DNA of 64,000 bases from Sphingomonas yabuuchiae (lineage in GTDB: Bacteria > Pseudomonadota > Alphaproteobacteria > Sphingomonadales > Sphingomonadaceae): contig NZ_LDTF01000007.1 in assembly GCF_001477495.1 (NCBI RefSeq), positions 248,001 to 312,000 of the forward strand. The letters run 5' to 3'. The notes under the pieces are model-generated. The model saw nothing but the letters and a program-made list of their open reading frames with translations, did not search any database and was not told where the DNA came from. How positions within the stretch are numbered: the first letter of the stretch is position 1; each line of letters begins with the position of its first letter. Both the position numbers and the translations under genes were made by a program. This document shows, piece by piece, positions 8,721-46,294 of the stretch.

Positions 8721-11564
8721 TCAGAGCGGTTCGTCATCGGCATAACCGGCACCTTCGGAGGGGCTGGGGGAGGGGGACGGCGCGGCGTGCCCGTCCATCA
8801 GGCGCGGCGACGGCAGATCGTCGGCGATCGGCTTGCCATGCTCGTCGACAAAGTCGGACGGCGAATAAAGCGGGTGAATGTTGTCCCACACCATCGAGGA
8901 GGACTTGCGCTTCTTGAAGCCCTTCTTCTCCATCTGGCCCGCCAGATACTTCGGAGACCACGGCTTGCCGCTGGCGGCCAGCAGCTGCGCCCATGCCTGC
9001 CACGCCGCGAACAATTCGTGCAGCGCCGTTGACCCAATCGACTCGCCGGGCACCTTCTGGATGCACAGGTTCAGGAATTGGCCCAGTAGGTCGTTTTCCT
9101 CCTGATAGGAGCGCGTGGCATCCTCCACGGCCTTGGGACGGGGCAATCCGCTGTCCAGATAGCGCAGGGCACCCGCGACCATCCGATTGAGGATGCCCGA
9201 CGCCTCGGCCTTCAGCTTAGCCTTCAGCAGCGGATCCGCGCGGTCGCTTGGCACGATCACGTCGAACGGAATGATCTCGACACGCCGCTGGATGCCATGG
9301 TCCGTGCCGATGCGCGGCTTGTGGTTGGCCGCCACCGTATTGGTGAACGTGACCTCCAGCTGGAAGGGAGGCTTCATCAGCTCGCGCACACCGCCGATCG
9401 GCTCGTCGCTGGTCATCGACTTGATCAGGCCGTCAGAGAACTTCGACCCTTCCTCCGGCTCGTTGGCATAGACCATGCGCCGCCCGGCCAGCGCCGCCAG
9501 ATCCGGCGAGGCGTCGGACCCCTTGCGATACTTGCCCTGATCAATGAACGTCTCGATCGCGGCCGCCCAGGCATAGTCGCCCAGAATGTGCGCAATGGTG
9601 TTCAGCCAGACGCCCTTGCCGTTCGATCCCTGACCATAGAAGATCGACATCTTCTGCGCGTCAGCCAGGCCAAGGGAGTTGTATCCCGACCAGACATCCA
9701 GGAACGCGCGCATCTCGGGATCGGGCTGCACCTCTTCCAGGAACGCATCATAGATCGGGCATGTGGCATCGGGCAGATACTCGGCCGCCGCCATCTTCGT
9801 GATCTTGTCCTTGCGGCTATAGGCGACCAGCTCGACACGGGCAGGCGCGCCATTCCCCGGCCGGGTGAAGATCAGCGTCCCGTTGGCGACGTTAAGCCGC
9901 AGCGGATCCGTGTCGAAATCCTCGGTCCGTGCCGCCAGCCGCGCCTCGGCCATGCCGGGCAGCGCCTTGATATGGCTTGCGCCCTCGGAGGTTCGCCCCC
10001 ACTTGGAAATGACGTCGGACAGCATTGTGACCGTGCCATCGCGCGCGACCTTCACGATCCGATCCAGCTTGCCCTTCTGTTGCGCCTGATGCGCGCGGAT
10101 TTGTTCGGCATCCCAACCGATCTCCTCTGGCTCCGGGACGCCTGTCCCTTTCACGAACTCGGCTTCGGCTTGGATAGCTCGGGCCGTATCCTGCACCGCC
10201 CGGCCGAGCAGCGGCACCGCCATGTTCCGGCTCCACCGCTGCCCGTCCCAGGCCAGCCAGCCCCACTGTTCGACAAACAGGAAATTGGCCCCGTGACGCT
10301 TCAGGAAGCGTTCGAGGTTGCCCAGGTCCGTCTGGGGCAGCAACGCGCATGTCTGCGCTGCCTCGGCCTCCCGATCGACCTCAGCGCCCTTTCCCTGCCG
10401 CTCCAAGGCCGGGGACCCTCCCGCTTGGGAGCTTGCGACATCACGTTCCCCACGGGAGGGGGCATGGGGGCGGGAAGGGCCGCGATCGGCACGACGACGG
10501 GCGGACTCAATGACGGACGACAGGTCGCGCGGCGACGCTATACCAGCGGTCAGCCCGTTTTCGATGGTCCGGTGCGCCAGCGCCACATCATTGAACCCGG
10601 CGACCGCACCATGGAGGAACGACCGGGCCATCGACTCCGACAAGGCCCCGGCGCCGACCAGCTGGCCGACCGCGAACGCCGAAGCATTGGTCTGGTTGTT
10701 GCGCGTACCGCCGGGCGTGTTGCGCAGCTTCTCTTCCTCGGCCGCCAGCGCCGCCAGGGCATATTTGCGCACAGCCGCGTCCACGGGATCATCGCCGCTC
10801 CCAGACGGCCGGGGAGGCGCGGAAGATCGAGCGGACGCTGGCTGGTCGCCAGCGGCGTTGTTCGCCTTGCTGGCCTTGGGAGCGCGCAGGATCGCGATCA
10901 GCTCGGCCGGGGCCTCCGCATAGGCCGCGCCGTCCCGCCAGTCCCCACGATCGCGCAGCCAGCGATAATCGCCCGTCGCGCTATCGGCCGCCTCGATGCA
11001 GCGGCTGGGCGCGCCGATGACGTACCCGCCCGCACCCCGCACGTCGACGTGCAGCGGCAGGGAACCCTTGTTCCGGATCGGCTCCCCCTCCGGCTGGCGG
11101 AAATAGACATGCACGCCGCCAGATGGCGTGATCGCCGTCACCGATCGCGGCAACGGCACCCCCATTTGCGCCTCCAGCGCCGCCTTCAGCTCCTCCAGCG
11201 TGCACAGTCGCTTGACCGGATGGCCATCGTCGTCGACCTGTACCTCGCCCGTCTCCGGATCGATCGCCTCCTCCCAGCGCGGATCGAAATCCACGACGAA
11301 CATGCCGTTTGCGCCCTGCGGCAGGCCGATCATCGCCTCGGGATTGCGCCGCCACCACGCGTGGATCTGCCCCTCGTCACGCGTCGCGGCCTTCAGGCCC
11401 TTGCCGATATAGGGCTGCTTCGCCTTCGACCGTCGCTCTTCCCCCGTCTTCGTGTCGAAATAGGGCGCGCCGTCCCGCTCGCGGCACGGGAACACCGGCC
11501 AGCCTAGGCGCGCGTAGAGGAGCGCTGCCTGCCCCATGGCCGACAGCGAGGATTCTTGAACCAC
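8721..11564 (-). CDS. Prim-Pol primase fused to D5/P4-type SF3 helicase
   Basis: About 947 residues. The N-terminal third is a bifunctional primase-polymerase domain: LGWPVFPCRERDG, the DxD metal motif in FVVDFDPRW (near residue 92) and SGGVHVYFRQ. A low-complexity linker follows. The C-terminal half is a P4/D5-type superfamily 3 helicase with Walker A in FYGQGSNGKGV, Walker B-like RMVYANEPEEG and a TFTNTVAANHKP sensor. It should open and prime the phage origin. It is encoded downstream of ssb, and an 11588-11609 hairpin lies between the two genes. The start at 11564 is usual for the family; MGQAALLYARLG at 11537 is an alternative. Confidence 0.9.
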   Translation of the reverse strand: MVQESSLSAMGQAALLYARLGWPVFPCRERDGAPYFDTKTGEERRSKAKQPYIGKGLKAATRDEGQIHAWWRRNPEAMIGLPQGANGMFVVDFDPRWEEAIDPETGEVQVDDDGHPVKRLCTLEELKAALEAQMGVPLPRSVTAITPSGGVHVYFRQPEGEPIRNKGSLPLHVDVRGAGGYVIGAPSRCIEAADSATGDYRWLRDRGDWRDGAAYAEAPAELIAILRAPKASKANNAAGDQPASARSSAPPRPSGSGDDPVDAAVRKYALAALAAEEEKLRNTPGGTRNNQTNASAFAVGQLVGAGALSESMARSFLHGAVAGFNDVALAHRTIENGLTAGIASPRDLSSVIESARRRADRGPSRPHAPSRGERDVASSQAGGSPALERQGKGAEVDREAEAAQTCALLPQTDLGNLERFLKRHGANFLFVEQWGWLAWDGQRWSRNMAVPLLGRAVQDTARAIQAEAEFVKGTGVPEPEEIGWDAEQIRAHQAQQKGKLDRIVKVARDGTVTMLSDVISKWGRTSEGASHIKALPGMAEARLAARTEDFDTDPLRLNVANGTLIFTRPGNGAPARVELVAYSRKDKITKMAAAEYLPDATCPIYDAFLEEVQPDPEMRAFLDVWSGYNSLGLADAQKMSIFYGQGSNGKGVWLNTIAHILGDYAWAAAIETFIDQGKYRKGSDASPDLAALAGRRMVYANEPEEGSKFSDGLIKSMTSDEPIGGVRELMKPPFQLEVTFTNTVAANHKPRIGTDHGIQRRVEIIPFDVIVPSDRADPLLKAKLKAEASGILNRMVAGALRYLDSGLPRPKAVEDATRSYQEENDLLGQFLNLCIQKVPGESIGSTALHELFAAWQAWAQLLAASGKPWSPKYLAGQMEKKGFKKRKSSSMVWDNIHPLYSPSDFVDEHGKPIADDLPSPRLMDGHAAPSPSPSPSEGAGYADDEPL

Positions 11565-12886: not shown

Positions 12887-13999
12887 TCAGACCCGCGACG
12901 GCATGATGACGAACGTCGCGGGCGCATCGGCACGATCCCGCAACACCACCGGCGCGGCGGGATCGGCGAACAGCATCTCGACAGCATCCGCCGTCAGCTG
13001 CCCCAGCGCGTCGAGCAGATACTTGCTGTTAAAGCCCACCTCCAGCGGCGGGCCGTCCCACCCGCACGGCAGTTCCTCGCGCGCCTCGCCTTTCTCCGGC
13101 GACGTGACCGTGATGATCAGCAGATCGCGCGAGAAGGACAGCTTCACGACCCGCGTCTTGTCCGTCGCCACCGTCACGACGCGCCCGATCGCCGCGATCA
13201 GGGCGTCCCGCTCGATGTCCAGGCGATGCGGGTTCGCGACCGGAATGATCCGCGCATAATCGGGATACTGCCCGTCGATCACCTTTCCAGTGACCACCGT
13301 ATCGCCCATTTCGAACTGCAACAGCCGATCGGTGACGGTGATCAGCACCTCGCCCTCATGCCGATCGAGCAACCCGCTCAGCAGCTTGGTCAGCTTGCGT
13401 GGAATGATGGTGTCGGGCACCCCATCCGCCCCGTCCGGCAGGGTCACGACACCGCGCGCCAGCCGGTGACCGTCCGTCGTCGCGAAGCGCAAATCCTGCC
13501 CGTCCGGCGCGTGCATGAAGATGCCATTCAGATAATAGCGCGTTTCCTCGGTGTTGATCGCATGGCTGACCAGCCCGATCGCCGCGCCCAGATAGATGGA
13601 CTGCATGGCGAACGCGCAGGCGTCCCGCGCCACCGGCTGCATTACCGGGAAATCCTCGGCCGCCAGCGTCGGCAGCTGGAACCGCGATCGCCCTGCCGAG
13701 ACGGTCAGCTTGCCATCCGCCAGCTTGACCTTTGCATCGACGTCGGCGGGCAGCTTCGACGCGATCCGGTCGAGGATCAGCGCCTCCACCGTGGTCGTGA
13801 ACGGCTCGGCCTGGGCCAGCGGCACGCGCCGCTGCACCATCAGGTCCAGGTCCGTGCCCGTCACCGTCAACGACTGATGATCCACCGTCAGCAGGACATT
13901 GGATAGCACGGGGATTGTGTTGCGCGCCTCGACCACCCCGACGACATCCTTCAGGACGCCGCGAAGCTGCGCGACTTCGATCTCGAACGAACCATTCAT
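12887..13999 (-). CDS. Phage-encoded DNA polymerase III beta clamp
   Basis: About 370 residues, full length for DnaN, with its three clamp domains. Seen: RGVLKDVVGVVEARNTIPVLSNVLLTVD near the start, LPTLAAEDFP, RYYLNGIFMHA, ATDGHRLARG, the SGLLDRHEGEVLITVTDRLLQF stretch, KVIDGQYPDYARIIP and a C-terminal PVVLRDRADAPATFVIMPSRV. It should be a ring that tethers the host replicase to phage DNA. The divergence from usual DnaN (for example the final MPSRV where hosts have MPMRV/L) suggests a phage lineage. The start overlaps the preceding gene by four bases. Confidence 0.9.
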   Translation of the reverse strand: MNGSFEIEVAQLRGVLKDVVGVVEARNTIPVLSNVLLTVDHQSLTVTGTDLDLMVQRRVPLAQAEPFTTTVEALILDRIASKLPADVDAKVKLADGKLTVSAGRSRFQLPTLAAEDFPVMQPVARDACAFAMQSIYLGAAIGLVSHAINTEETRYYLNGIFMHAPDGQDLRFATTDGHRLARGVVTLPDGADGVPDTIIPRKLTKLLSGLLDRHEGEVLITVTDRLLQFEMGDTVVTGKVIDGQYPDYARIIPVANPHRLDIERDALIAAIGRVVTVATDKTRVVKLSFSRDLLIITVTSPEKGEAREELPCGWDGPPLEVGFNSKYLLDALGQLTADAVEMLFADPAAPVVLRDRADAPATFVIMPSRV

Positions 14000-14556: not shown

Positions 14557-14828
14557 CACGCCGCCAGCGCCTCCGGCACCCGGTCGAACCAGCCGGATCG
14601 CGCAGGCCGTTGGAACATCGCCGCGGTGACGCCCATCAGCTTGGTCAGGGCGACGCCGATCCGCAGGCCGGGGATCAGGTCGCCGTCGACGATCCGCTGC
14701 ACCCATTCTTCCGAAATCTCCAGCGCCTCGGCCGCCTGGGCGACACCGCCCGGCAACGTCATCACCCATTGCGCCACTCGCCGCGCGCCTTCGCTGGCTG
14801 GCTTGGCCATGAGATGCAGCTTGCCCAT
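14556..14828 (-). CDS. Small HTH-like early phage protein
   Basis: About 90 residues, MGKLHLMAKP start at ATG 14828, which overlaps the stop of the CII-like gene by one base. The central part GGVAQAAEALEISEEWVQRIVDGDLIPGLRIGVALTKLMGV looks like a Cro/XRE-type helix-turn-helix. It may be an accessory regulator in the early operon. A TTG one codon earlier is a less likely start. No family name can be given. Confidence 0.68.
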   Translation of the reverse strand: MGKLHLMAKPASEGARRVAQWVMTLPGGVAQAAEALEISEEWVQRIVDGDLIPGLRIGVALTKLMGVTAAMFQRPARSGWFDRVPEALAA

Positions 14829-15307
14829 CAATTCCCTCCCTCAAGCGTTTCGAGTTCGGCGCGCATCGTCATGACGACCGCGACCACATCATCCAGTTCC
14901 TTGATGGCCCGCCGCGCCGCTGCCGCACGGGCCGCCGGATCGCCGTCGACGGCCGTGCAGCACGCAATGGCGGCCTCGGTCAGCTCGCTGCTTTCCCGCG
15001 CCTTGGCGGCCAGCAGCGTCAGCAGATCGCCGCGCGTTGCCTGCGCTTCCGGCAGGGGCACGAAGACACCACCCATCGCCGTGCAAAGCGCGCGGGTGAC
15101 GTGTGGCCACCCCGTCCGATCCCGCGCCAGCGGCTCCAGATCGGCCACCACGTCGAGCGCGACGAAGACCTCCGGCCGACGCCAAGATTGCGCATCGGAC
15201 AGCGTCGACTTGCCCACGCGGCAGAAGGTGGCGGCCGCCTCAACCCCGCCGACGCCCTTGATCATCTCGGCGGTCGCCTGCTTCAGCTTCAGGAGTTCCG
15301 GCGTCAT
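14828..15307 (-). CDS. CII-like phage regulatory protein
   Basis: About 159 residues. The N-terminus (LKLKQATAEMIKGVGGVEAAATFCRVGKSTLSD) resembles the phage regulatory CII family, where this segment holds an HTH used at early promoters. The middle has DVVADLEPLARDRTGWPHVTRAL and the C-terminus is a long Ala/Glu helix. It is the fourth gene after the Cro-like start in a string of overlapping leftward genes. Its ATG overlaps the 15304-15993 stop by four bases. The CII name is a family resemblance, not a proven function. Confidence 0.68.
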   Translation of the reverse strand: MTPELLKLKQATAEMIKGVGGVEAAATFCRVGKSTLSDAQSWRRPEVFVALDVVADLEPLARDRTGWPHVTRALCTAMGGVFVPLPEAQATRGDLLTLLAAKARESSELTEAAIACCTAVDGDPAARAAAARRAIKELDDVVAVVMTMRAELETLEGGN

Positions 15308-15993
15308 CGGCCCAACCCCGCTGCGCTTGCGCCACGCCGGATATTCGCCAAGAACAACTCCGCGTGACCGGGAAACCGCGACCGCTGAAACAGCGTCCAG
15401 CTAGGGTCCGTGAATTCATGTTCGAGGATGACGAAGAAAGCGGGCCAATCCCGTGCAAGAAGTGCGGTCAGGAGATCCGCGTGCCCTTCAGCTGGTTGGA
15501 ACATGTGGCGGTCTACGACATCGACTGCCCCCGGTGCTGGGCCTGCAACACCTATGATCACGGGCCAGTAAAGCAGCAGCTCGATGAATTCGTGGAACGC
15601 AAGATACGGGAACGCGATACCGCCGACCGAGACGCTGCCGCCCTCGACGAGGACGACATCAACGAGGACGAGGAGTTCGAATAGCGCATCGCCCAGCGCC
15701 TGGGCGGATACGAGATTGGCCGCGCCCGCCTCGACGACCCGCAACGACTTGCCGCCCGCCATCCAGATCGGATCGACCCGTCCTTTCTTGGGATACGCCG
15801 TGGCATAATCGACCCGGATGCTCGATGCCGTGGTGATCCGCGCATGACGCCCCCGCATCAGCGGATCGACGCGCGGGTCGCCATGCGGGCCACGCACGAC
15901 GTTCAGCGTCGTCGTGTACTCGAAATGACCGTCCGCCCGCTGGGCAGAGGGCAAGACCCGGCCGCCCAATTCAACGAGATGCCGCGCGGTCAT
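15304..15993 (-). CDS. Unrecognised early phage protein overlapping an opposite-strand ORF
   Basis: About 229 residues, MTARHLVELGGRVL start at ATG 15993. Both ends show four-base ATGA overlaps, with the Cro-like stop (15990) and with the CII-like start (15307), the strongest reason to call it. The N-terminal half is beta-rich and basic (ADGHFEYTTTLNVVRG, SSIRVDYATAYPKKG). The C-terminal half ends with a plausible helix-rich segment (DWPAFFVILEHEFTDPSW). The 3' half (15418-15684) lies opposite a plus-strand zinc-ribbon ORF, so one of the two may be spurious, or both may be translated. No family recognised. Confidence 0.55.
   Translation of the reverse strand: MTARHLVELGGRVLPSAQRADGHFEYTTTLNVVRGPHGDPRVDPLMRGRHARITTASSIRVDYATAYPKKGRVDPIWMAGGKSLRVVEAGAANLVSAQALGDALFELLVLVDVVLVEGGSVSVGGIAFPYLAFHEFIELLLYWPVIIGVAGPAPGAVDVVDRHMFQPAEGHADLLTALLARDWPAFFVILEHEFTDPSWTLFQRSRFPGHAELFLANIRRGASAAGLGR
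15418..15684 (+). CDS. Small acidic zinc-ribbon protein (antiparallel to the early operon)
   Basis: About 88 residues. It shows CKKCGQEIRV, 17 residues, then CPRCWAC, a classic two-knuckle zinc ribbon, followed by a charged helix and a very acidic end (DEDDINEDEEFE). Third-position GC is roughly three quarters, as expected for a real gene here. It lies entirely opposite a leftward gene of the early operon and has only a weak AGGG upstream. A GTG start at 15364 would add 18 residues. The zinc ribbon argues for a real protein, while the operon context argues for the other strand. Confidence 0.45.
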   Translation: MFEDDEESGPIPCKKCGQEIRVPFSWLEHVAVYDIDCPRCWACNTYDHGPVKQQLDEFVERKIRERDTADRDAAALDEDDINEDEEFE

Positions 15994-16268
15994 GCCGACA
16001 CCCGGCCGGAAATTTTGTCCGCCTTTCCGAATGACCCAATCGGATCGCAATGGGTACAAGGCAGCGTCACGCCGTAATTGATGGCGAGCGACGCGACGTC
16101 TACCGGGGGGACGAGGCCTTGAGCGATGCGGTGCAGATGATCGAGCCGGGATGGCGAAAGGCCGTTCCTGCGCCAGTTGTGCACGGTCGACACGCCCGTA
16201 TGAGCGAGATTGGCTGTGGCGGTCGTGCCTCCAAGGGCATCGATCAGAGCATTGGCGAAAGCATCCAT
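15990..16268 (-). CDS. Cro-like/YdaS-like HTH repressor
   Basis: About 92 residues, MDAFANALIDALGG start at 16268. A helix-turn-helix is visible (TTATANLAHTGVSTVHNWRRNGLSPSRLDHLHRIAQ), with the W-R-x-x-G turn typical of YdaS/Cro-type proteins that act as anti-repressors of lysogeny. It is the first gene of the leftward early operon, divergent from the CI-like gene, with the shared operator region between them. The C-terminal tail has a CTHCD pair. An ATG at 16280 is also in frame, but it would start inside operator site 1. Confidence 0.82.
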   Translation of the reverse strand: MDAFANALIDALGGTTATANLAHTGVSTVHNWRRNGLSPSRLDHLHRIAQGLVPPVDVASLAINYGVTLPCTHCDPIGSFGKADKISGRVSA

Positions 16269-16279
16269 GCGGCACAACA

Positions 16280-16341
16280 TGCCAAAATGGCAATTTTCCA
16301 GCAAGGTGGAAAATGCCAAAAAGGCATTTGCCATATCGGCA
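16280..16341. promoter_or_regulatory. Operator cluster of the CI/Cro switch (three TGCC-N5-GGCA sites)
   Basis: Seen: site 1 at 16280-16292 (TGCCAAAATGGCA), site 2 at 16314-16326 (TGCCAAAAAGGCA, extended to ATGCC...GGCAT), site 3 at 16329-16341 (TGCCATATCGGCA). A related inverted repeat TTTTCCA-N6-TGGAAAA at 16294-16313 lies between sites 1 and 2. Centre spacing is about 17, 17 and 15 bases, so sites fall on a roughly 1.6-turn grid as in phage operators. The region separates the divergent cro-like and cI-like starts. No clean promoter pair could be fixed. Confidence 0.85.
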
Positions 16342-16364
16342 TGTTTTCAGCGACGCGTATAGGT

Positions 16365-16940
16365 ATGGAAATTGCCCAGATCCGCGCGCTGATGAAGGAG
16401 CGAGGCTTCAATCAAGCCGACCTTGCGAACTTGCTTGGGATCGATCCGACGGCCGTGTCGAAGCGCCTGACGGGCAAACGCGCGTTCAAATATGACGAAA
16501 TGCGCAAGATCGAGTCGTGGCTTGGCCAACAACCCGCGCCAATAATCGAAGGCGCGCAAGTTAGAATGCTTCCTATCATCGGCCAAGTTGCCGCTGGATC
16601 GTGGAGAGAGGCGATCGAGCAACCATTGGGTCATATGCCAGTTAGAGCGGCCACCGCTTCCCCGAACGCTATTGTTCTGGAGGTGTATGGCGATAGCATG
16701 GACCTAGAAATTGACGAGGGTGGATACGTCGTCGTCGATATGGACGATAAAGGGCTATATCCGGGGCGCTTGTTCGTCGTTCTGAACGGCGAGGGCGAAG
16801 CCACCTTTAAGCAGTTCGAGACAGATCCATTGCGCCTCGTTCCAAGATCTTCGAACCCGATTCATTCTACTATACTTATTGGCGACGGGCAGCCCTTCAC
16901 GGTGTTAGGCCGTGTTGTTTCACTGATCCGCGAGCGCTGA
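16365..16940 (+). CDS. CI-like repressor with S24 (LexA-type) self-cleavage domain
   Basis: About 191 residues. N-terminal XRE HTH (MEIAQIRALMKERGFNQADLA, LLGIDPTAVSKRL), then a C-terminal S24 peptidase domain: cleavage-like QVAAGSW, catalytic Ser in VYGDSMD and catalytic Lys in EATFKQFE. It keeps the prophage silent and should be cleaved after DNA damage with RecA. The start at 16365 fits the HTH; an ATG at 16341 adds eight residues but begins inside operator site 3. Its base composition is less GC-rich than its neighbours. It probably binds the TGCC-N5-GGCA sites on both sides of the gene. Confidence 0.93.
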   Translation: MEIAQIRALMKERGFNQADLANLLGIDPTAVSKRLTGKRAFKYDEMRKIESWLGQQPAPIIEGAQVRMLPIIGQVAAGSWREAIEQPLGHMPVRAATASPNAIVLEVYGDSMDLEIDEGGYVVVDMDDKGLYPGRLFVVLNGEGEATFKQFETDPLRLVPRSSNPIHSTILIGDGQPFTVLGRVVSLIRER

Positions 16941-17136
16941 GCGCGTCGTCGAAGTCCATCCATTCCGATTGGCGATCGAGGCCTCCGGGTATCGTGATGA
17001 AGAAGCCATCCGAATCATAAGACCCAAGTTTCGCCGCGATCAGGTCAGCTCGGGCCGCCTTAATTCCTTGGCGCCATGGGCCTATTGGCCTTCCGAAGCA
17101 CGTCGCACGATACCAGTGAACCACGATCCGACCCAT
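16897..17136 (-). CDS. Hypothetical phage protein convergent with the repressor gene
   Basis: About 79 residues starting MGRIVVHWYRATCFGRPIG at 17136. Contains a basic helix (KAARADLIAAKLG) and a short beta-like segment (SDGFFITIPGGLD). The stop lies inside the last 44 bases of the repressor gene, so the two genes converge and overlap. A good -35-like TTGACA lies on the minus strand at 17192-17197 with no strong -10 at ideal spacing. I cannot name a family. It is supported by a sensible protein composition, and otherwise the region 16941-17295 would be empty. Confidence 0.55.
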   Translation of the reverse strand: MGRIVVHWYRATCFGRPIGPWRQGIKAARADLIAAKLGSYDSDGFFITIPGGLDRQSEWMDFDDALSARGSVKQHGLTP

Positions 17137-17206
17137 TGTCCGTCCATCCCTAATGCCTCTTGGCTGGAACAAAGATAGAACAAGATCAAGATGTCAAACC
17201 CGTAAA

Positions 17207-17252
17207 TGCCAAAACGGCAATTATCAGATTGACGGAATATGCCGTAATGGCA
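17207..17252. promoter_or_regulatory. Distal operator pair and promoter of the integration operon
   Basis: Two more TGCC-N5-GGCA sites: site 4 at 17207-17219 (TGCCAAAACGGCA) and site 5 at 17240-17252 (TGCCGTAATGGCA), with centres 33 bases apart. A plus-strand TTGACG (17229-17234) and a GATATA at about 17253 give a plausible sigma-70 promoter whose spacer contains site 5. This points to repression of the rightward operon (membrane protein through integrase) by the CI-like protein. The pair also lies upstream of the leftward gene at 17136. Confidence 0.75.
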
Positions 17253-17295: not shown

Positions 17296-17598
17296 ATGCG
17301 CATCCCACCACAGCACCATGACGGCGTCGGGACCAACGCCTCGCTACATCGCTTTCTGATCAGCCCCGGACACGACGGCCGTCCGGCCGCTGACCCGGAT
17401 CATCAGTCGCGCGCGACGCATGACCTCGCCAGCCGGGTCCGCCGCCTGCGTGACCGCCGCATCGCACCGCCCAGCGTCGGGATCGAGATCGACGAGGGCC
17501 ACCGCGTCATGCGGGCGATCCTGGTGGTCGCGGCCGTATCGCTGCTGATGTGGATCGGCAGCGGCATCATCGCCGCCCATCTGGCGGGCCGGATCTGA
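17296..17598 (+). CDS. Small phage membrane protein
   Basis: About 100 residues. The N-terminal 65 are basic, His/Arg/Asp-rich and probably cytoplasmic. One transmembrane helix is clear near the end (VMRAILVVAAVSLLMWIGSG). Start at 17296 with GGAG seven bases upstream. First gene of the rightward operon whose promoter contains operator site 5. Its stop overlaps the next start (TGATG). The function is unknown: superinfection exclusion would be a guess based on a membrane protein in a lysogenically regulated operon. Confidence 0.65.
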   Translation: MRIPPQHHDGVGTNASLHRFLISPGHDGRPAADPDHQSRATHDLASRVRRLRDRRIAPPSVGIEIDEGHRVMRAILVVAAVSLLMWIGSGIIAAHLAGRI

Positions 17599-18059
17599 TG
17601 CCCGCTTTCTATTACAGCACCACGCCCGCGTTCGAGAATGCGGAACTGTGGTTCGGCCCCCATCCGACCCGCGAAGCAGCAGCGACCGCCGCCACCACGC
17701 GCTTCCCGGATGTCGGCTTCTGGACGGCCCAGGCCGAGCCGCAAGCTAACGAGCTGGACATCTTCACCCCCGCCATGGCCACGGAGGGCGGCCCCATCGC
17801 CGACGCCTTCGCAGCCCGGAACGGAGAGACGTTCGGCGAGGATGGGGAGGGCGGTCCGACATGGTGGACCGAGGACGCGATCGCCGTCTTGATCAAGCGC
17901 CTCAACTACCAGTTCGCCGCCTGGGCGACCGAGCACGGCTATCAGCGCGGCTGGATGCTCGACATCCATGACGAGCAATGGACCGCGCCTGCGCCAAGGA
18001 CCGCGCCCGCGCGCCGTCCTGTCCTGACCCTCTTTTGCACACAGGAGCGCGCGGCATGA
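17598..18059 (+). CDS. Hypothetical phage protein
   Basis: About 153 residues starting MPAFYYSTTPAFENAELWFG. It has a Tyr/Phe/Trp-rich N-terminus, a helical WTEDAIAVLIKRLNYQFAAWATEHGY stretch, and a Pro/Arg/Ala tail. The start overlaps the previous stop by one base and the stop overlaps the next start by four. No known family recognised. Membership in the integration operon suggests an accessory or moron function. Confidence 0.68.
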   Translation: MPAFYYSTTPAFENAELWFGPHPTREAAATAATTRFPDVGFWTAQAEPQANELDIFTPAMATEGGPIADAFAARNGETFGEDGEGGPTWWTEDAIAVLIKRLNYQFAAWATEHGYQRGWMLDIHDEQWTAPAPRTAPARRPVLTLFCTQERAA

Positions 18060-18532
18060 GCCGGTCGCCCATGACCTTCGTCGGCAACGGTCCGTATCCG
18101 CGTCGTCGTGGCGACTGGGCGGACCTTGGCCGCACGGCCGTTCAGCTGCTGTCGGAACGCGAAAAGGGCTATCCTGCCATGGTCGCGGCCCAGAACCTGG
18201 ATCAGGCGCTCGCCGACACACGGATCCGCGTCATGCGCGCGGTCGTCGCGATCTGGCGCGCGGTCCTGAACGACGAGGCTCTGCCCGAGCCGATCGATTT
18301 CCAGGCGCGCTTCGGCGCGACATGGGAGGAGATGCGCGACGACCTGGGCCGAGCGGCAGTCCGCGCGCGGGATCTGGCGCGCAAACAGCGCGACGACCGC
18401 GACGCGGCCGTGCAGGCCGAACTGGTCGAGGCACTGGCATGGCAGCATCAGCCGGTGTGCGCAGGCTCCGGTCCGCACATCTGGCTGTCGCACGACTATC
18501 AACAGTGGGAGAGAAGGAGGGCGGCCGGATGA
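18056..18532 (+). CDS. Hypothetical phage protein
   Basis: About 158 residues, mostly helical and charged, starting MSRSPMTFVGNGPYP at the ATGA overlap. It includes NLDQALADTRIRVMRAVVAIWRAVLND and RARDLARKQRDDRDAAV. The C-terminus has CAGSGPHIWLSHDYQQW. Its stop overlaps the next ATG by four bases, and an AAGGAGG box for that next gene lies inside its end. I do not recognise a family. Confidence 0.68.
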   Translation: MSRSPMTFVGNGPYPRRRGDWADLGRTAVQLLSEREKGYPAMVAAQNLDQALADTRIRVMRAVVAIWRAVLNDEALPEPIDFQARFGATWEEMRDDLGRAAVRARDLARKQRDDRDAAVQAELVEALAWQHQPVCAGSGPHIWLSHDYQQWERRRAAG

Positions 18533-18711
18533 CAGCGCCTGCTCGCTTTACAAAGACCGACGTCACCCGGGCCATGAAAGGCGCTCGGGACGCAGGCTTT
18601 GGCCATGTTCGCGTTGCGATCGATGTTCATGGTAACATGGTCATCGACGCCAGCGATTCACCGACGATCGTCGGCCGACCCAACCCGCTCGACAGGCTGC
18701 TTCCGAAGTGA
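18529..18711 (+). CDS. Small protein encoded just before the integrase
   Basis: About 60 residues: basic start MTAPARFTKTDVTRAMKGA, then a GFGHVRVAIDVHGNMVIDAS beta-like part. Small proteins of this pattern (T-K-D-x-T-R-A-x-K, then G-x-I-x-I) are often found immediately upstream of alphaproteobacterial phage integrases. They might act as excisionases or integrase partners, which is inference. The AAGGAGG box at 18514-18520 supports this start. The stop overlaps the integrase GTG. Confidence 0.72.
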   Translation: MTAPARFTKTDVTRAMKGARDAGFGHVRVAIDVHGNMVIDASDSPTIVGRPNPLDRLLPK

Positions 18712-19781
18712 AGACCCGATATAAGAATGTCACGGTAGACCCCGATCGCCACGGGAAACTTCGCGCCCGGTTCCGCAAAGCCGGGCGCAAGCCGGTCTAT
18801 ATGAAGCACCTACCCGACGAAAAGGGTTTCAAGGCTGAATACGAGGCTTTGTTGGCCGACAGGCCGATGATCGTCGTGCGCCCGGCTGTCCCCGGTAGCG
18901 TTGGCGACCTCGTGTCGCGCTACTATGCGGCGGGCGATTTCAAAGGGCGCGGCACGGCAGAAACTCAGGCCCGTCGGAAGTATCTGATCGACAGCTTCCG
19001 CGAGGATTTTGCCGACGATCTCATCTCTGACTTCGGCTTTGAGCATATCGAGGCGATCCTGCTGGCCCGGACCGAGAAGCGTTGGGATGATACCCGCAAG
19101 CGGACGATGGGCGGTCAGGTCGCGGCCGTTAAACTCCGCAAGGAACTGCGCCGCCTGTTCGCTTACGCCAAGAAGCTGAAGTGGATCGAGCATAATCCGG
19201 TCGAGGATGCCGCGACGATCGGCAAGACCAAGCTGACCGGCTTTCACACGTGGACGGAGCAGGAAATCGCCCAGTACAAAGCGCGGCACCCGCTGGGCAC
19301 ACGCGCAAGGCTGGCGCTGGAGATCATGCTTTGGACGGGTCAGCGGCGAGGGGATGCCCGCCTGTTCGGCCCGGCCCATGTCGTGCGCGGCAAGATCAAT
19401 TTCACGGCCGCAAAGAATCAGGCTGACCTTTGGCTGCCGATCGCCCCCGATCTACGCCGAGCGATTGACGCTATGGATAGCGTGGGGCTGCGTTCATTCC
19501 TCGTCACGACCGCCGGTAAGACGTTCACGAAGGATGGCTTCGGCAACAAGATGCGGGAATGGTGCAATGAGGCAGGTTTGCCACACTGCACCGCCCACGG
19601 CCTACGCAAGGCGATCGCCCGGCGAATGGCTCAGAGCCAAGCCACGCAGCTGGAGATCAAGGCGGTTGGCGGCTGGAAAGGCGATAGCGAAGTCGCAATT
19701 TATACCGCCGCTGCGGACCAGGAAGGCCTCGCCGATGGTGCGATCAGCCGCACCATCAACCGATTCTCAGATCAAAAATGA
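18708..19781 (+). CDS. Tyrosine integrase of the prophage
   Basis: About 357 residues, GTG start overlapping the previous stop. Phage integrase layout: N-terminal arm/SAM-like part with RYYAAGDFKG, core-binding helices, and a C-terminal catalytic domain with Arg (WTGQRRGDARLF), HxxR (HGLRKAIARRM) and the tyrosine in SEVAIYTAAADQ. It carries out site-specific recombination with the tRNA gene that starts about 80 bases downstream. It is the last gene of the operator-controlled operon. The end at 19781 is right before an inverted repeat. Confidence 0.93.
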   Translation: MKTRYKNVTVDPDRHGKLRARFRKAGRKPVYMKHLPDEKGFKAEYEALLADRPMIVVRPAVPGSVGDLVSRYYAAGDFKGRGTAETQARRKYLIDSFREDFADDLISDFGFEHIEAILLARTEKRWDDTRKRTMGGQVAAVKLRKELRRLFAYAKKLKWIEHNPVEDAATIGKTKLTGFHTWTEQEIAQYKARHPLGTRARLALEIMLWTGQRRGDARLFGPAHVVRGKINFTAAKNQADLWLPIAPDLRRAIDAMDSVGLRSFLVTTAGKTFTKDGFGNKMREWCNEAGLPHCTAHGLRKAIARRMAQSQATQLEIKAVGGWKGDSEVAIYTAAADQEGLADGAISRTINRFSDQK

Positions 19782-19816: not shown

Positions 19817-19862
19817 TATCCGAGCAGAAAATGCTTAAAAAACAATATGTTGTTTGGGAAAT

Positions 19863-19938
19863 TGGTGGGCCCGGCAGGACTCGAACCCGCAACCTAGCCG
19901 TTATGAGCGGCCAGCTCTAACCGTTGAGCTACAGGCCC
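19863..19938 (-). tRNA. tRNA with CAT anticodon (tRNA-Met or tRNA-Ile2), prophage attachment gene
   Basis: Reading the minus strand: acceptor stem GGGCCTG pairs with CGGGCCC, TAGCTCA D-arm, anticodon loop CTCATAA between GGCCG and CGGCT, GGTTCGAGTCC T-arm, discriminator A and encoded CCA at 19863-19865. A CAT anticodon could be elongator Met or lysidine-modified Ile2. The GGGCC acceptor stem favours Ile2, as in many bacteria, but this cannot be settled without modification rules. The 3' half next to the integrase is the probable att core. Confidence 0.9.
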
Positions 19939-46202: not shown

Positions 46203-46294
46203 CCTTTCCCGGCGCGGCCGGTCGAATGACCTTGTTCGACCGGCTACGTTCGTTCTATGTTCCGACCTGTCCCGAGGTTTGACAGGTTGTTGAA

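Follow-up and report, generated by a model that had tools for sequence, protein, structure and literature searches.

The immunity region

The window analysed here, a stretch of 64,000 nucleotides from Sphingomonas yabuuchiae (contig NZ_LDTF01000007.1, positions 248,001 to 312,000), contains between positions 16280 and 17252 five inverted repeats of the form TGCC-N5-GGCA, which are distributed on both sides of the repressor gene cI in the immunity end of an apparently complete 41.5-kb tailed-phage prophage. Three of these repeats occupy the gap between cI and a divergent cro-like gene (right operators, OR), which holds the right early promoter pR, and two lie at the left early promoter pL of an operon ending in the integrase gene (left operators, OL). 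The interval from cI to the left operators holds a small gene, called SM hereafter, that is preceded by a binding motif for LexA. All coordinates are those of the window.

16280..16292, no strand: operator site 1 (OR), TGCCAAAATGGCA, within the pR spacer; position kept in relatives
16314..16326, no strand: operator site 2 (OR), TGCCAAAAAGGCA, 34 bp from site 1
16329..16341, no strand: operator site 3 (OR), TGCCATATCGGCA, 15 bp from site 2, overlapping the presumed cI -35 element
16365..16940, plus strand: CI repressor, 191 amino acids, helix-turn-helix (HTH) and S24 domains; cleavage site VAA-G77, Ser111, Lys in TFKQF
16897..17136, minus strand: SM, 79 amino acids, between cI and the left operators, convergent with cI, overlapping the cI 3' end by 44 bp
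17167..17181, minus strand: LexA box GTTC-N7-GTTC, GAACAAAGATAGAAC, upstream of SM
17168..17197, minus strand: presumed SM promoter TTGACA-N18-TTTGTT as read from the sequence, with the -10 element inside the LexA box
17207..17219, no strand: operator site 4 (OL), TGCCAAAACGGCA, flanked by the presumed SM promoter and pL
17240..17252, no strand: operator site 5 (OL), TGCCGTAATGGCA, within the pL spacer

The operator cluster

A motif scan of the window confirmed the five sites that the earlier note had reported, each being an exact TGCC-N5-GGCA at the position given above. The whole window holds seven exact matches as compared to 2.35 ± 1.46 in shuffled sequences; the two matches outside the cluster, at 15211 and 60088, have G+C-rich cores, and only the one at 15211 falls inside the prophage. 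Five sites within 973 bp compare with 0.033 expected, corresponding to a P of about 3e-10, a post hoc value not corrected for how the window was chosen, and the clustering is thus beyond chance. The earlier note had also held that a motif frequent elsewhere in the host genome would speak against the sites. Since the genome of the strain (3,909,164 bp) contains 132 such palindromes and a reversed control 119, the bare motif is indeed common by itself, and taken alone it defines no operator. This near-background frequency is what would favour regarding the cluster as a coincidence of a common host motif; however, five copies fall within 973 bp, their positions are kept in relatives in which the sequence has changed, and both half-sites are seen to covary there, so that we assign a negligible probability to this explanation. 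Genome-wide enrichment was rejected as a measure of operators, as the narrower pattern TGCCRNWWYGGCA also stays near background with 13 genome matches per strand versus 13 and 17 in the control; the operator cluster accounts for 4 of the 13 genome matches on the plus strand.

Conservation of the layout and covariation with the repressor

CI carries an N-terminal HTH_3 domain (PF01381) and a C-terminal Peptidase_S24 domain (PF00717), both over cut-off, in agreement with its earlier description as a CI-type S24 repressor of 191 residues. Its close relatives comprise five viral contigs (53-100% CI identity) and a locus of Sphingomonas endophytica (L046, 72%); two distant S24 proteins (27-29%) from the same search were set aside, and the CI of L117 (genome G590, same genus) is identical to that of S. 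endophytica (L046 = L052). In four distinct phages with TGCC sites (the window = L049, L050, L051, and L052 = L046) each of sites 1-3 keeps its distance from the cI start, although the DNA is only 60-76% alike; in L053, sites of the form TGCG-N5-CGCA are spaced as in the TGCC phages.

Further loci were gathered by searching with SM. Hereby, a script scoring the layout of three plus two sites found it in 14 of 15 distinct loci, with spacings of 33-35 and 15 bp beside cro and of 32-36 bp on the left; in L095, which is counted among the 14, the third site is weak and lies elsewhere, and the TTACG-N5-CGTAA sites of L102, the remaining locus, were identified by eye. Among 18 further loci, 14 score three plus two, L125, L126 and L135 score 4, and L166 fails; L167 and L169, with the half-site TACG, score three plus two with other spacings (32, 26 and 26). 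The full score of 5 was reached by none of 300 Markov shuffles. The layout recurs where the half-site is TGCG, TGCT or TCCG instead of TGCC. In 12 CI relatives without SM the script found no such layout, a result which was not counted as evidence of absence, as the windows used can miss real dyads (in L017 two were seen by eye).

The half-site appears to follow the recognition helix of CI. The residue after the Lys of this helix is Arg in all eight TGCC loci and in none of the 24 loci with other half-sites, and in three TACG/TTACG loci Glu replaces the Lys itself. This match, which few events may underlie, links the sites to CI, and the five dyads are almost certainly the operators of the 191-residue repressor. 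The proposal of one repressor acting on cro, on cI itself and on the promoter of the integrase operon is likewise supported by the comparison, where conserved layout, covarying half-sites and the helix match all point to such control. Alternatively, the dyads might be the sites of Cro or of some other small regulator, as lambda Cro reads the same operators as lambda CI. Yet it is the helix of CI that the half-site follows, and two of the sites are placed 0.9 kb away at pL, which makes this alternative very improbable.

Promoters and distances

The operators are interleaved with the following promoter elements.

16299..16304, minus strand: pR -35 element TTGCTG, which is the core that stays conserved in a supposed sixth inverted repeat
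16276..16281, minus strand: presumed pR -10 element CATGTT, placed by the distance from -35 to ATG
16328..16333, plus strand: presumed cI promoter -35 element (TTGCCA), overlapping site 3, followed by a weak presumed -10 element
17229..17234, plus strand: pL -35 element TTGACG, placed by conservation and sequence reading

On the minus strand, all 14 loci compared have a TTG located precisely 12 bp ahead of site 1, and in 12 of them the cro ATG comes 36 bp after the first T of this pR -35 element (37 in L095, 35 in L104). These fixed distances place site 1 between the -35 and -10 elements of pR, and the pR transcript is predicted to begin with the first base, A, of the cro start codon (16268), yielding a leaderless cro mRNA. 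At the left end, every one of the 14 loci has a TTG that precedes site 5 by 11-13 bp (TTGAC in 9, TTGC in 4 and TTGAT in 1); given this near-fixed distance, pL and pR appear to be built alike. This also agrees with the earlier placement of site 5 in a -35/-10 spacer, as the site sits between TTGACG and a weak -10 element. TTGC at the presumed cI -35 element was seen by eye in 14 loci, but its conservation proves little because in most loci it belongs to the operator as well. In the interval 17192-17252, the presumed starts of SM and of pL are each about 50 bp downstream of site 4, as the pR start is of site 2, and CI bound at site 4 could touch both divergent promoters.

The earlier note had further counted an inverted repeat at 16294-16313 (TTTTCC-N8-GGAAAA) as a sixth member of the array that keeps the spacing. 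In the window all 7 outer pairs of this repeat match, a level attained by just 0.09% of shuffled spacers. In 13 relatives, however, 3-5 of 7 pairs are formed, which is the level of the shuffles, and what is kept within the interval is the pR -35 element on the other strand, which reads CAAG in 13 loci and CAAC in L105. The repeat was therefore rejected as a spacer operator and is not supported as part of the array; it may be due to chance or be private to the phage in the window.

DNA looping between OR and OL, octamer-mediated in switches of the lambda type and raised by the earlier note, may occur. The distance from site 1 to site 4 amounts to 918-948 bp in 13 loci and to 1111 bp in L095, and no common helical phase between the clusters was seen among these 14 loci, which speaks neither for nor against looping. 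The near-constant distance is set by the lengths of the two intervening genes.

A small gene with a LexA box inside the switch

SM and its LexA box are new beyond what the earlier note had found. The box matches GTTC-N7-GTTC, the LexA motif of Alphaproteobacteria (as given in an excerpt of PMC3323433). In the strain's own genome the motif occurs 96 times versus 29 times in the control, with two overlapping boxes preceding lexA (TIGR00498, over cut-off) and one preceding recA; the sole other match in the window, at 46248-46262, lies outside the prophage. Across the 15 distinct loci, 14 boxes fall into the 300-bp intervals past CI (4,500 bp) as compared to one in the other 135,698 bp. After removal of duplicates, 33 loci have SM convergent with CI, and the box is exact in 30 of them, whereas the 12 CI relatives without SM have no box in SM orientation within 600 bp after CI (Fisher P 2e-8 if the loci were independent). 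Merged duplicates were L099 = L088, L117 = L046 = L052, L100 = the window and the CI-centred copies L142-L163, with L051 and L088 kept apart; left out of the counts were L020 (doubtful SM match), L110 (no SM by script) and the matches G731, G593 and G640 of the genus search (no locus). In view of these frequencies, LexA very probably controls SM.

Of the 295 genomes covered by the genus searches, 35 gave SM-like matches and 28 gave CI matches. Wherever a related CI is present in the fetched stretch (expectation value, E, below 1e-8), SM is convergent with it, except for a doubtful same-strand match in L109. Searches of Pfam, PHROGs, NCBIfam, PADLOC, the sequences and folds of the PDB and viral folds (BFVD) gave no match of note for SM, the listings being limited to Mrr_N for one of nine members at E 0.15 and to fold matches with E above 0.3, and tblastn against 50,697 phage records gave no match at E 0.1.

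SM overlaps the cI 3' end not only in the window but in 11 of the 12 loci that could be parsed among the 15. This opens the possibility that the LexA-controlled transcript itself matters, being antisense to the 3' end of the cI mRNA and bringing a polymerase into opposition with cI transcription. A precedent is the OOP RNA of phage lambda, which starts at a promoter with a LexA site, is convergent with a lysogeny gene and overlaps the 3' end of this gene, cII, by 52 bases (excerpt of PMC5869508). In contrast to OOP, which is an RNA regulator, the target here would be cI rather than cII, and the transcript encodes a conserved protein: SM is under strong purifying selection, with a ratio of nonsynonymous to synonymous substitution rates (dN/dS) of 0.04-0.11 in six whole-gene pairs, dS being near saturation in five of them, and its predicted fold is confident (mean predicted local distance difference test score, pLDDT, of 88). 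Moreover, L092 has no overlap at all. Regulation by the transcript is thus unlikely as the main function of the locus, although an antisense effect and an action of the SM protein would not be mutually exclusive.

The CI cleavage site

The CI of the window has the features of a RecA-cleavable repressor, namely an Ala/Cys-Gly site (VAA-G77) and a Ser/Lys pair (Ser111 and the Lys of TFKQF); correspondingly, the LexA protein encoded in this genome shows AAG, GDSM and the matching Lys. Among the 33 SM loci, 32 CI sequences are readable at this position, of which 27 keep the Ala/Cys-Gly dipeptide and five have lost it: L092, L120 and L122 (all GG), L093 (AR) and L094 (AS). None of the 11 readable CI relatives without SM has lost the dipeptide, and the catalytic Ser and Lys are kept in all readable CI proteins, with or without SM. 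The contrast is suggestive only; loss of the dipeptide among SM loci would be expected if SM can take over induction.

Proposed induction mechanism

Taken together, we have high confidence in a lambda-like set of CI operators combined with an SOS-induced SM gene within the immunity region, as far as sequence comparison can tell. In the lysogen, CI at sites 1 and 5 would block both early operons by covering pR and pL. By analogy with lambda OR2 and OR3, site 2, with pR on one side and the cI promoter on the other, is placed to activate cI, and site 3, over the presumed cI -35 element, is placed to limit it, while sites 4 and 5 flank the -35 element of pL, which would drive the operon ending in integrase. 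The LexA box at SM and the intact cleavage features of CI imply that SOS damage should act twice, on the one hand by RecA-stimulated self-cleavage of CI, for which site and catalytic pair are intact, and on the other hand by freeing SM from LexA repression. SM would hereby serve as an antirepressor-like inducer protein encoded inside the immunity region. We give an even chance to SM promoting induction by acting on CI. Rather more tentative, and for us somewhat short of an even chance, is the broader notion that SM represents a new class of small SOS-induced antirepressors, that the cassette of three operators, cI, SM, LexA box and two operators is carried by temperate phages of sphingomonads and provides a second, LexA-timed induction route, and that this route has replaced RecA-driven CI cleavage in the members with GG, AR or AS.

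A number of observations weigh against this picture. The TGCC loci form one clade, so that the match of helix and half-site may go back to few changes, and the loci are related (the CI proteins of L051 and L088 are 98% alike) and hence are not independent trials. L118 has SM without a LexA box, and L052 and L135 carry one mismatch in it (GTTC-N7-GTTT). The contrast in the cleavage site, 5/32 versus 0/11, is not significant (one-sided Fisher P 0.21). A consensus scan, by which alphaproteobacterial promoters are poorly covered, reported no sigma-70-like promoter in the region, which is why the promoters were placed by conservation, and the -10 elements are weak. Finally, 19 rows (18 distinct stretches) have an SM-like match without a related CI, and only L096 and L113 among these stretches have a near box.

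The last point leads to a further explanation, in which SM is SOS-induced but acts elsewhere, in a host process or a later lytic step, and its placement only exploits the divergent promoter. SM-like domains away from a related CI (L108/L112, L106, L107, L113, L114, L133 and L137) lie in some cases in phage-like stretches and are in one case tandem; in L113, where a more distant S24 repressor lies on the SM strand, the box is about 50 bp upstream of the SM-like gene, and in four stretches (L108/L112, L114, L133 and L137) it is about 300 bp upstream. Because such domains occur away from this type of CI, SM may serve a different purpose, or a second one besides, and neither family nor structural matches reveal its function. 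Against a purely separate role stand the convergent arrangement with every related CI apart from L109 and the joint recurrence of operators, CI, SM and LexA box, and we consider such a role rather unlikely.

Relation to known switches

In phage lambda, three operators lie at the left promoter, about 2.4 kb separate the two operator clusters, and the rex genes are found beyond cI. The region described here differs in having two left operators and 0.93 kb between the clusters, in the sequence and spacing of the operators, and in a LexA-box gene that stands in place of the rex genes. Common to both are three operators at cro/cI with more at the left promoter, early promoters that are overlapped by operators, an S24 repressor, a divergent cro, a CII-like gene after cro and an integrase in the left operon (the lambda side partly after an excerpt of PMC5869508).

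SM recalls the antirepressors of the Gifsy type as a small phage gene with a LexA box at its promoter; no family or fold match was found. Small LexA-controlled phage antirepressors are also present in coliphage 186 (Tum), N15 and SPC32H. The Gifsy prophage antirepressors, as described in an excerpt of Lemire et al. (2011; PMC3121763), are small phage proteins expressed from a promoter with a host LexA box, but there the repressor is non-cleavable and the antirepressor gene lies outside the immunity region, in contrast to SM inside the operator array and a CI that mostly keeps its cleavage dipeptide. LexA sites before antirepressor genes are a known theme, as far as an excerpt of PMC9437464 goes. 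The cassette thus shares parts with lambda, with the Gifsy antirepressors and with OOP, and it equals none among the systems compared. Among the open-licence papers listed, none was found that deals with operators or LexA-driven induction in Sphingomonas phages or describes this layout.

While the array of operators is in itself a textbook case, about thirty related switches of similar geometry, in which half-site and recognition helix change together, make up a natural series for studying a DNA-recognition code. SM adds a conserved gene without a known family or fold match that lies inside an immunity region under apparently direct LexA control. If SM inactivates CI, the repressor would be subject to both cleavage and antirepression, and some relatives may represent intermediate stages.

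Prophage setting

The remaining genes of the prophage that were assigned are given below.

15990..16268, minus strand: cro-like gene, 92 amino acids (phrog_8008, E 9e-7; NF046037, E 2e-7, below its cut-off)
17296..18711, plus strand: left operon, small genes upstream of integrase (open reading frame (ORF) list and PHROG search)
18708..19781, plus strand: tyrosine integrase, 357 amino acids (PF00589, E 2e-13; phrog_1), adjoining the tRNA gene
19860..19879, no strand: attachment (att) core, 20 bp, at the 3' end of tRNA-Met (19863-19938, minus strand); second copy at C158:226324-226343
14828..15307, minus strand: CII-like activator gene (phrog_101, E 5e-11), downstream of cro
12887..13999, minus strand: prophage-encoded DNA polymerase III beta clamp (three DNA_pol3_beta domains)
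8721..11564, minus strand: Prim-Pol/D5 protein (domain search)

In line with a tailed phage, five of nine ORFs submitted to a PHROG search match terminase, portal, head protease, major head protein and tape measure. The 20-bp repeat presumably marks the prophage ends. The assignment of cro is weak, resting on the family matches listed and on its position divergent from cI, with no Pfam match for the protein; the left-operon genes upstream of integrase likewise gave no telling Pfam or PHROG match. Near the beta clamp gene lies an ORF whose end resembles, by eye, that of a single-stranded DNA binding protein. A plus-strand ORF at 15418-15684, between cro and the CII-like gene and on the opposite strand to both, contains four Cys residues (CxxC...CxxC) and may encode a real zinc-binding protein.
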